DNA from: Collinsella provencensis
Lineage (GTDB): Bacteria > Actinomycetota > Coriobacteriia > Coriobacteriales > Coriobacteriaceae
Length of the DNA stretch: 64,000 nt
Direction: 5' to 3'
NCBI RefSeq assembly: GCF_900199705.1
Contig: NZ_LT904908.1
Span: 860,530-924,529 of the forward strand
The notes beneath the pieces are model-generated. The model saw nothing but the letters and a program-made list of their open reading frames with translations, did no database searches and was not told the origin of the DNA. Position numbers and translations under genes: made by a program. Shown one piece after another: positions 37,953-42,122 of this stretch (positions within the stretch are counted from its first letter, which is position 1; the number at the start of each line of letters is the position of its first letter).

Positions 37953-37998
37953 AAGGCCCCTCGATGTTTCGTAGGGGCCTTCGCGCGCTTCGTTTGTG
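37953..37998 (-). terminator. Riboswitch-controlled terminator of the thiamine operon
   Basis: AAGGCCCCT/AGGGGCCTT (37953-37961 and 37973-37981) form the core stem, extended by GCACAAAC/GTTTGTGC outer arms. It lies between the TPP aptamer and the first gene, where TPP binding would favour termination. Confidence 0.75.
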
Positions 37999-38008
37999 CG
38001 AGAGGTTG

Positions 38009-38098
38009 TACGTCCCTACGCCGGCATTACCCGGATCAGGTTGCGGGTCGAGCGATGGGTCGCTCCTCTCAGCCGGTCCATTTCCCAGCTCCCCGTGT
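38009..38098 (-). ncRNA. TPP riboswitch (THI element)
   Basis: The minus strand carries the conserved TPP aptamer: GGGGAGC at the 5' arm, CTGAGAGG in the pyrimidine-sensing helix, ACCC, then ACCTGATCCGGGTAATGCC and GCGTAGGGA at the 3' arm. It would switch off the ykoF-like/thiX/thiY/thiZ operon when thiamine pyrophosphate is plentiful. A TACACT -10-like box lies just upstream at about 38110-38115. Confidence 0.95.
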
Positions 38099-38130
38099 TA
38101 CAGCGGACAGTGTAGCACGTTCATACAAAA

Positions 38131-38156
38131 GAGGCGTCGCGCAATTGCAACGCCTC
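38131..38156. terminator. Hairpin between the repeat block and the TPP operon
   Basis: GAGGCGT (38131-38137) and ACGCCTC (38150-38156) with an inner GC/GC step form a stem followed on the minus strand by TTTTGT. It can end transcription coming from the fic side before the TPP promoter. Confidence 0.65.
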
Positions 38157-38194: not shown

Positions 38195-38343
38195 TGAGAC
38201 CAGACGGTTATTGCAGATTCGGATTTGAAACCAGGCCGTTGTGTCAAAAATCAGCCGTTTTATGCAACATTCGTCTGGTCTCAGTTGTGGGTATGTAACA
38301 TTGGTCTAGTTTCAACTTCGGGCATGCAACATTCGTCTAGTCA
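38195..38343. repeat. 31-bp-period repeat block A, includes an 89-bp inverted-repeat element
   Basis: Five copies of a 21-bp unit like GAGACCAGAC...TGCA: forward at 38195 and 38226, reverse at 38263, 38294 and 38325. Neighbouring units of the same orientation are exactly 31 bp apart. The segment 38195-38283 has inverted ends and is about 88 percent identical by eye to 39729-39817 on the other side of fic. The last reverse unit contains the stop codon of the remnant gene. Confidence 0.8.
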
Positions 38344-38501
38344 ACCTGATAGCTCCTCAGCTGAGCAGGGGCAACGCGCGGGAACATCTCGCGGCGATCA
38401 GACTCGTCAGCCGCAACCACATAGTATTCGACAGTGGCGCCAGCTGGCTGCGCCGGAACCTTGGCAACATAAACCTCGTGCGTACGTCCGGGAATAAGCT
38501 T
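38337..38501 (-). pseudogene. 3' remnant of an unrelated gene, in frame behind fic
   Basis: Immediately after the fic TGA (38504-38502) the same frame stays open for 54 codons to TAG at 38339-38337. The translation is clearly protein-like (GRTHEVYVAKVPAQPAGATV, then EYYVVAADESDRREMFPRV), resembling the last strands of an Ig/fibronectin-like beta-sandwich as found at the ends of secreted enzymes. It has no start codon or ribosome site of its own. I read it as the leftover 3' end of a gene replaced by the fic gene. Confidence 0.6.
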
Positions 38502-39563
38502 TCAGTGTGCGTCCGCCCTTACGTATCGAGTGTTTCGACCTGCTCCAATCTTAGTGAGCGCCCCCTCGTCGACCAGCCGCTTGAGGGCCGACTCCACTGA
38601 CGAGCTGCCCAACGCCGGACAGGCCTCCAACACATCACGCTTGGAAAACGGGCCTATAACATCTTGAACATGGTTCAAGACGATGTCATAAGACGTGCTT
38701 CTAGCTCCAGCAACCTCTACCATAGAAACGCGCCGCTCGAGATCGCGATAGCAAGAGAGGATAACGCTCAGCATGTACTCGATAAACGGCTTCGGATCAT
38801 TTGTTCCCTCGTGCCAACCAACGTCCGATGCCGCCAACGCGTCATAGTAGGCATCCTTGGTCTTTTCGATCGCTTTCTCCACGCTGATGTATCGACCGAC
38901 CATGTAGCCGGCGCGATAAAGCAACAACAGCGTGAGCAATCTGCTCATGCGTCCGTTACCATCCTCAAAGGGATGGATGCATAGGAAGTCCAAGACGAAA
39001 CATGGAATCAAAATCAACGGATCGACCCTGCCTTCCGCCAACGCTCGGTCATATGCGCCGCAGAGTCGCTCAATGACCTCGGGCACCTCATGCGGCGGCA
39101 CTGGGACAAACAACGTTGCCGTCTCCCCGCTTGGAAGAATCATGTCGATCTCGTTCGGCGCAGACTTATAACGTCCACCGAAGGAGTAGCTCGTAAAATG
39201 CATAAGATCCCGGTGGAGCTGCAGGATGTAGTTCGATTTTATCGGGATATACTCGTAACTCTCGTGCACCAGATCCAATACGTTCCTATATCCTAAGATC
39301 TCCTCCTCGTCGCGATTGCGCGGAGTGGTCTTGCTGGCAATCAACTGACGAAGACGCGGATTGGTAGTCCGAATCCCCTCGATGCTGTTGGAACCCTCGG
39401 TACTTTGAATCCTGGCTATCTCCATCAGGCGGTCGAGAGCAACCGGTTTCTGATACAAAAGCAACTTCTGCTTTCCCTTGTACTCATGTATCTGCGCGAC
39501 ATAGGAGACGATCTCGTTGCTCCATGTCTGCTCTTTTAGCGCTGCATAGTTAAATTCCCTCAT
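38502..39563 (-). CDS. Fic domain protein with C-terminal winged helix
   Basis: A 353-residue Fic protein, predicted to transfer AMP or another nucleotide onto a target protein. The N-terminal part carries the auto-inhibitory motif SNSIEG (residues about 59-64, consensus S/TxxxE/G-N), which makes this class II. The active-site loop HPFEDGNGRMSR is complete (His near residue 196). The last 60 residues (FSKRDVLEACPALGSSSVESALKRLVDEGALT) form a winged helix-turn-helix, so the protein may bind DNA. The ATG follows GGGAGA. Repeated TCCCAAT motifs upstream are possible self-binding sites. Repeat elements bracket the gene. Confidence 0.88.
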   Translation of the reverse strand: MREFNYAALKEQTWSNEIVSYVAQIHEYKGKQKLLLYQKPVALDRLMEIARIQSTEGSNSIEGIRTTNPRLRQLIASKTTPRNRDEEEILGYRNVLDLVHESYEYIPIKSNYILQLHRDLMHFTSYSFGGRYKSAPNEIDMILPSGETATLFVPVPPHEVPEVIERLCGAYDRALAEGRVDPLILIPCFVLDFLCIHPFEDGNGRMSRLLTLLLLYRAGYMVGRYISVEKAIEKTKDAYYDALAASDVGWHEGTNDPKPFIEYMLSVILSCYRDLERRVSMVEVAGARSTSYDIVLNHVQDVIGPFSKRDVLEACPALGSSSVESALKRLVDEGALTKIGAGRNTRYVRADAH

Positions 39564-39570
39564 ACGTTTC

Positions 39571-39640
39571 TCCCAATCTGACTATCTATGTCCCAATATT
39601 ACTATCATTTTGGGAGATTAACTGATGAATTTGGGAGAAA
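39571..39640. promoter_or_regulatory. Four CCCAAT half sites upstream of fic
   Basis: Two direct copies of TCCCAATnTnACTATC start at 39571 and 39591 (period 20). Two inverted ones, TTTGGGAGA, lie at about 39609 and 39630 (period 21). The first overlaps the fic ribosome site. This looks like an operator array, possibly for the winged helix of the Fic protein itself. Confidence 0.5.
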
Positions 39641-39665
39641 AGGAGTCGGGATCTTAATACAGACT

Positions 39666-39817
39666 TGAGACCGGACCGTTGTTGCAGGTCGCCCTGTGCT
39701 TGCGGTACCTACGCAGGTGGCAGCACACTGAGACCAGACCATTGCTGCAAGTTCGGATTTGAAACCAGACCGTTGTGTCAAAAACCAGCCGTTTTATGCA
39801 ACATCGGTCTGGTCTCA
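39666..39817. repeat. 31-bp-period repeat block B, second copy of the 89-bp element
   Basis: Units like GAGACCAGAC...TGCA start at 39666, 39729 and 39760 (forward) and 39797 (reverse). The 89-bp segment 39729-39817 has inverted ends (GAGACCAGAC/GTCTGGTCTC) and repeats the arrangement and sequence of 38195-38283. It lies between the fic promoter and the aspS terminator. Confidence 0.8.
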
Positions 39818-39837
39818 ACGGCGGTATGCGAAACAAA

Positions 39838-39865
39838 AGGGGCGCCATGAAGTCATGACGCCCCT
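39838..39865 (-). terminator. aspS terminator
   Basis: AGGGGCG/CGCCCCT arms with an ATGA/TCAT inner stem, followed on the minus strand by TTTTGTTT. It lies 37 bp after the aspS stop. Confidence 0.85.
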
Positions 39866-39901
39866 CAACGAGAGTTCGTTTACAGCTGGACCGCTTGTCC
39901 C

Positions 39902-41698: not shown

Positions 41699-42122
41699 GG
41701 CGTCCTCCTTTTCATCTGTGCCGCCCCGTGCCGGTACGGGCGACTGGTGTACAGACTGCCCGGGCGCGTAGACAGCGCGTTCGGGCCAAAAACGGCGCAG
41801 GACAACAAGGCGTCACCGCGCGCGACAGCTCATAAGGATAGCGGCTTATAGCACACTGCACCACACAAAAGTGCCGCCCATGGGGGTTCTTAACATTTTC
41901 GACTCAATAAGACCGAGGATAACGTGCTATGAGCAGGCCTTCTTCTCCATTTGAACTCCGGCACCTGCAGTAATTCTCGACACAATCGCCCGCACAAAGG
42001 GCCCAGCGAAAAAGAGTTGCCAAAGCAGCACCTAAGCCACCATGCCTACGCGTTCGAACGAAAAAACGGCCGACCCGCAAATCTCTCTGCAAACCGGCCG
42101 TCATCATGCTATCTGGCAGCTA
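41699..42122. other. 424-bp gap between aspS and ppc
   Basis: Apart from the ppc terminator near 42061-42101 I see no gene or clear repeat. A TATAAG or TATCCT sequence on the minus strand (about 41840-41850) may be the -10 of aspS, but no matching -35 is evident. Confidence 0.4.
42061..42101 (-). terminator. ppc terminator
   Basis: ACGGCCG (42066-42072) pairs with CGGCCGT (42095-42101), with a further GCGGGT/GTTTGC-like inner stretch, followed by six U residues on the minus strand. Confidence 0.85.

Follow-up and report, generated by a model that had tools for sequence, protein, structure and literature searches.

A fic gene in the window, by which we mean the whole 64,000-nucleotide stretch of Collinsella provencensis DNA analysed here, is bracketed by two arrays built from a bipartite unit of 21 bp. 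From anatomy alone, we put at about one half the probability that these arrays, and those at other loci of the same genome, are clusters of bipartite duplex sites for a putative sequence-specific DNA-binding protein. The fic gene between them is most likely a separate cassette that reached the locus late and brings a putative operator of its own. Among the proposals made in the original prediction (a composite mobile unit, a recombination substrate or a cooperative phased protein-binding array), the last is the best supported: units are conserved while linkers are random, spacing and dyad are fixed, the arms do not covary, and the arrays are intergenic and restricted to one species among the genomes searched. 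Helical phasing is drawn here from few independent spacings, and restriction to one species is also expected of a mobile or selfish repeat. From these observations we infer the binding of a protein to the units, its cooperativity and its effect on transcription or local chromosome structure.

Arrays on either side of fic

The near-identical 89-bp segments described in the original prediction lie where it placed them (38195-38283 and 39729-39817), in direct orientation, with 89% identity and 1534 bp from start to start; the inverted ends that it noted are borne out by 21-bp end arms that are 86% complementary, and fic is indeed the sole gene between the two copies (Table 1). Each copy consists of two plus-strand units 31 bp apart followed by a minus-strand unit 37 bp further on, and the longest exact run common to both, read from the alignment, is 19 bp. 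In full, the left array runs + + - - - from 38195 to 38345, and the right array has one + unit at 39666 ahead of the + + - of its 89-bp copy. A degenerate unit pattern matched the window seven times against 0.02 expected, and none of 100 shuffles reached seven. The strict 31-bp period claimed for the additional units holds on the left, where those at 38294 and 38325 (both minus) keep to 31 bp, but is slightly overstated on the right, because the plus unit at 39666 lies 63 bp from its neighbour rather than 31 or 62.

The left array is situated between fic and a terminator-like hairpin, and the right array beside the terminator-like hairpin of aspS. An Rfam aspS RNA (RF02930) was also found upstream of aspS, at window positions 41706-41786. 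The two fic-flanking arrays are alike in their linkers (8/10), in their centres (15/16) and in a unit variant ending in TGTGTCA, which is true of no other pair of loci, and these common linkers indicate that one array is a copy of the other.

Table 1. Features of the window and related loci of the host genome (window coordinates, except where contig C3 is named)
Feature	Coordinates	Strand	Remark
TPP riboswitch of thiamine-binding-protein/ABC transporter genes	37996..38105	-	
Terminator-like hairpin	38131..38156	-	downstream of fic and left array
Left array unit 1	38195..38215	+	start of 89-bp copy 1
Left array unit 2	38226..38246	+	variant end TGTGTCA
Left array unit 3	38263..38283	-	inverted, 37 bp from unit 2
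Left array unit 4	38294..38314	-	
Left array unit 5	38325..38345	-	degenerate, weak score
fic	38502..39563	-	353 aa, Fic domain (PF02661, 2.1e-16)
Putative fic operator	39569..39638	.	four TCTCCCAA/TTGGGAGA-type half-sites adjoining fic start; conserved upstream of fic homologues
Right array unit 1	39666..39686	+	63 bp before unit 2
Right array unit 2	39729..39749	+	start of 89-bp copy 2
Right array unit 3	39760..39780	+	variant end TGTGTCA
Right array unit 4	39797..39817	-	inverted, 37 bp from unit 3
Terminator-like hairpin	39837..39866	-	downstream of aspS, adjoining right array
Array locus	C3 140756-140875		
Array locus	C3 611211-611330		
Array locus	C3 756826-756876		
Array locus	C3 898724-898874		in window (left array)
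Array locus	C3 900195-900346		in window (right array)
Array locus	C3 1030371-1030490		
Array locus	C3 1231387-1231527		
GGGCTGTTTTTNNGYATTTGA dyad loci, first six	C3 156177-156234, 729093-729150, 741510-741618, 1017576-1017633, 1037773-1037830, 1286123-1286180		
GGGCTGTTTTTNNGYATTTGA dyad loci, last six	C3 1341022-1341079, 1372762-1372819, 1374493-1374550, 1545902-1545959, 1625244-1625301, 1656116-1656173		
ACAGACATATCCCCTCGGGC hairpin loci	C3 512955-513012, 563511-563568, 659112-659169, 666298-666355, 1605434-1605490		

A phased unit at seven chromosomal loci

The host genome is nearly complete (1.74 Mb), with the window inside contig C3, and contains about 27 units at seven loci, all judged to be intergenic from the adjacent reading frames; some short longest-ORF frames that cross arrays are in our view spurious. 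Five of the seven loci lack fic, and the genome-wide search thus places the repeats at unrelated loci, contrary to the link with fic that the original prediction had entertained. The unit reads TGARACC(A/G)GAC-NNN-TGTTGCA, with positions 12-14 free between two conserved blocks. Identity between loci is 0.78 for the units, against 0.31 for the 10 nt after them and 0.33 for the 10 nt before (n = 290 pairs), which is near chance for the linkers; the 16-bp centres of the dyads are weakly similar between loci (0.50 against 0.31 for random sequence, best of two strands).

Every locus with both orientations keeps the order [+]n[-]m, and inverted pairs are spaced 37 bp from start to start in six of six cases. 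Between direct neighbours the spacing is 31 bp in ten cases and 30, 41, 42 and 63 bp in one case each, with 41-42 and 63 bp departing from the 31-bp phasing. Conserved sites, fixed phased spacing and unconserved linkers, the marks of a binding array, are therefore found together. A protein bound to such an array would occupy neighbouring units along roughly one helical face (three turns being 31 bp), and would meet its counterpart head to head across the fixed 37-bp dyad, an arrangement in which occupancy would probably be cooperative.

The dyads could also be read as RNA hairpins serving as bidirectional terminators or mRNA 3′-end elements, as their palindromic cores have 21-bp arms around a 16-base loop and two of the loci sit between convergent genes. 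This is very unlikely given how the arms vary: mismatches average 4.33 between the arms of one element and 3.53 between arms from different loci, with no compensatory change, so that the arms of an element pair no better with each other than with arms elsewhere and the hairpin is not what is kept. There is no conserved T tract, the tandem 31-bp units have no role in a hairpin, and separate, ordinary terminator-like hairpins adjoin both window arrays; an RNA hairpin or intrinsic terminator was rejected for want of arm covariation. Single units also fold less than their shuffles (mean folding energy -0.47 and -1.83 kcal/mol, respectively). As read from sequence, the conservation pattern marks a predicted duplex recognition site, not an RNA or single-strand hairpin.

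The genes adjoining the arrays have no evident common function, the array positions show no clear promoter bias, and no 31-bp array was seen upstream of pgi in the 26 congeners where the scan located this gene (its start was missed in three others); no conserved regulon is therefore visible. A replication landmark was likewise rejected, as the arrays lie dispersed with respect to the extremes of GC skew (near 1.22 and 0.32 Mb).

Distribution of the unit and the case for a selfish repeat

Of 43 genomes of the genus searched with as many as three mismatches allowed, the host alone has the unit in multiple copies, the other members having at most one scattered match. An order-wide scan allowing two mismatches gave a match in 24 of 395 genomes including the host, and outside the host these were single matches only: seven inspected by eye showed no array, and when those fetched were checked automatically, none had another unit 31 or 37 bp away. 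A phage or plasmid origin was rejected, as phage and plasmid records held no match; viral contigs gave one exact unit match, with no second unit in the surrounding sequence read. Literature searches turned up no title or abstract that deals with these repeats. In four congeners, a covariance model built on the 58-bp core found dyads of equal size (21-16-21) whose arms differ in sequence. Homology of these dyads to the 21-bp unit is unproven, because any strong hairpin of that size scores well under the model by which they were selected. It is conceivable, though we think it unlikely, that the genus carries species-specific systems that evolve fast, a DNA-binding protein changing together with its dispersed phased arrays within a constant geometry (21-bp arms, 16-bp centre, 37-bp inverted spacing), and that these structure the chromosome or insulate genes and also offer exchange sites that can capture incoming genes such as fic.

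The main rival to a binding array is a decayed species-specific repeat family, in which the arrays would be functionless relics of a dispersed or selfish repeat (REPIN- or MITE-like) whose transposase has since been lost. We regard this as a possibility to be taken seriously, if less than an even one. It accords with the confinement of the units to one species, with the 21-16-21 dyads of related species and with the RAYT-like Y1 proteins of most congeners, many of which have their own flanking repeats. It also accords with a second species-restricted dyad family in the host genome, GGGCTGTTTTTNNGYATTTGA, which occupies at least a dozen loci and likewise has an inverted spacing of 37 bp. This family has 20 matches in the host genome, and of 42 congeners two have a single match. 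The 16-bp centre was part of the search for it as well, and counting across all lengths of the centre gave no excess at 16. Copying of a repeat would, however, bring its linkers along, yet these are near random between loci, and whole-element copies at different sites are seen only in the fic-flanking pair. Copy number is low, the unit contains no hairpin, inspection of the array flanks by eye showed no target-site duplication, and the host genome has no Y1 transposase (no match to PF01797). An origin by RAYT/REPIN was rejected on this last ground and because different repeats flank the RAYT genes of congeners. The features that define REP/REPIN elements, namely a hairpin-forming unit, a RAYT/Y1 gene or RAYT-flanking repeats, and high copy number (often >100 units, against about 27 here), are thus lacking.

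Several other repeats were noted in passing. The GGGCTGTTTTTNNGYATTTGA arms enclose a 16-bp centre, and their outer flanks often reach AACTTTGGGCT. A third set of hairpins in the host genome, ACAGACATATCCCCTCGGGC..., has the conserved centre CAGCTCTTCGAGAAAT. RAYT-like Y1 proteins were located in congeners G022, G023, G034, G016, G008, G020, G030, G033, G025, G015 and G058 (loci L286-L305), many with inverted repeats of their own, for example CGACAAGATGGTGCCAGGTACAAACTTGTCG (31 nt) and GTTGGGGACGTGTTCC. One of these congeners, G022, has two pairs of CGACAAGATGGTGCCGGGT-type units with a 31-bp period (L268 2515-2569 and 10393-10457), which look like tandem copies of a RAYT-associated repeat.

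The fic gene and its putative operator

The translation of fic contains HPFEDGNGR and an N-terminal S-x-x-x-E-G inhibitory-type motif (SNSIEG), and its HPFEDGNGRMSR conforms to the HPFx(D/E)GNGRxxR pattern of Fic adenylyltransferases. Its closest relatives lie outside the genus (79% identity in Adlercreutzia), and within the genus no orthologue exceeds 48% identity. In five relatives with both genes in the fetched stretch, the interval from aspS to the thiamine-binding gene is either empty or occupied by a different gene, and it measures only about 290 bp in one of them; the GC content of fic is 0.529, against 0.582 for the genome. The relatives outside the genus, the locus without fic in five relatives and the low GC content together make fic most likely a recent arrival, and an ancestral fic at this locus, which would have undone the original prediction, finds no support in those five relatives.

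Half-sites of the TCTCCCAA/TTGGGAGA type, at least two within 140 bp upstream, were found at 52 of 78 fic homologue loci. The total is 204 half-sites, the expectation over whole loci being 0.13 per 140 bp. They occur mainly at closer homologues and are absent from distant ones, including the checked fic genes of the genus; the subfamily with half-sites upstream spans Coriobacteriales, Lachnospiraceae and others (e.g. L044-L062, L116). By position and conservation these half-sites are likely to be the operator of the fic subfamily, and the motif is a directly testable candidate for that role.

It had been suggested that the winged helix of the Fic protein binds the array, which would make the arrays the operator of the protein's own DNA-binding domain. 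The right array does lie upstream of fic, at about 100 bp from its start. The separate TCTCCCAA/TTGGGAGA motif is nearer to that start and conserved among homologues, which makes Fic binding to the 31-bp array improbable; moreover, no array unit was seen near the fic homologues scanned, and arrays exist where fic is absent. We consider this reading extremely unlikely.

How fic came to lie between two arrays

Homologous exchange, in which DNA bearing fic integrated by a single crossover within an array, would yield flanking duplicates; alternatively, a local duplication would yield the same pair. We infer a duplication step by one or other of these routes. The proposal of a recombination substrate therefore survives in part: the flanking arrays are mutual copies in linkers and odd unit variant, and fic came late to the locus.

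A composite mobile unit carrying fic fared less well. If arrays and fic formed one mobile or excisable cassette moving by exchange between the 89-bp copies, the direct 89% repeats around fic and the relatives without fic at the locus would be accounted for. Against this stand the five array loci without fic, the fic homologues scanned elsewhere that have no units nearby, the lack of any target-site duplication seen by eye at the array ends, the absence of a recombinase between the copies and the 19-bp longest exact run, which is short for RecA-dependent exchange. Such a cassette is very unlikely, and the locus shows how a recently arrived gene of the defence type can be enclosed by duplicated arrays to which it does not belong.

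Comparison with known systems

Comparison with SoFic-type systems (PADLOC SoFic; PDB 8uqu, 3eqx) bears on fic itself rather than on the arrays around it. The window fic resembles SoFic-type Fic adenylyltransferases (PADLOC SoFic, 6e-40; PDB 8uqu, 7e-82) and keeps HPFEDGNGR, but its score against the NCBIfam SoFic equivalog, 53.7 of 550 bits, is far under the cut-off. REP, BIME and REPIN repeats are mobilised by RAYT (TnpA-REP) transposases (PMC3116915, PMC2817692). The arrays resemble these in their short intergenic units, alternating orientation, regular spacing and species-specific sequence families; unlike them, the unit here is non-palindromic and does not fold, has no GTAG/CGTC tag that we could see, occurs as about 27 units between random linkers and is accompanied by no Y1/RAYT gene.

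In cooperative operator and iteron-type arrays, DNA-binding proteins with two domains occupy phased sites of 17-22 bp. The present units differ from such arrays in being spread over seven chromosomal loci by unrelated genes, with no plasmid origin and no recognised regulon, and are like them in their bipartite build of ~21 bp, near-whole-turn spacing and direct plus inverted layout. If a protein does bind them, the units would constitute an undescribed family of sites with an unusually strict geometry, and the seven loci would be the places at which to test its role.
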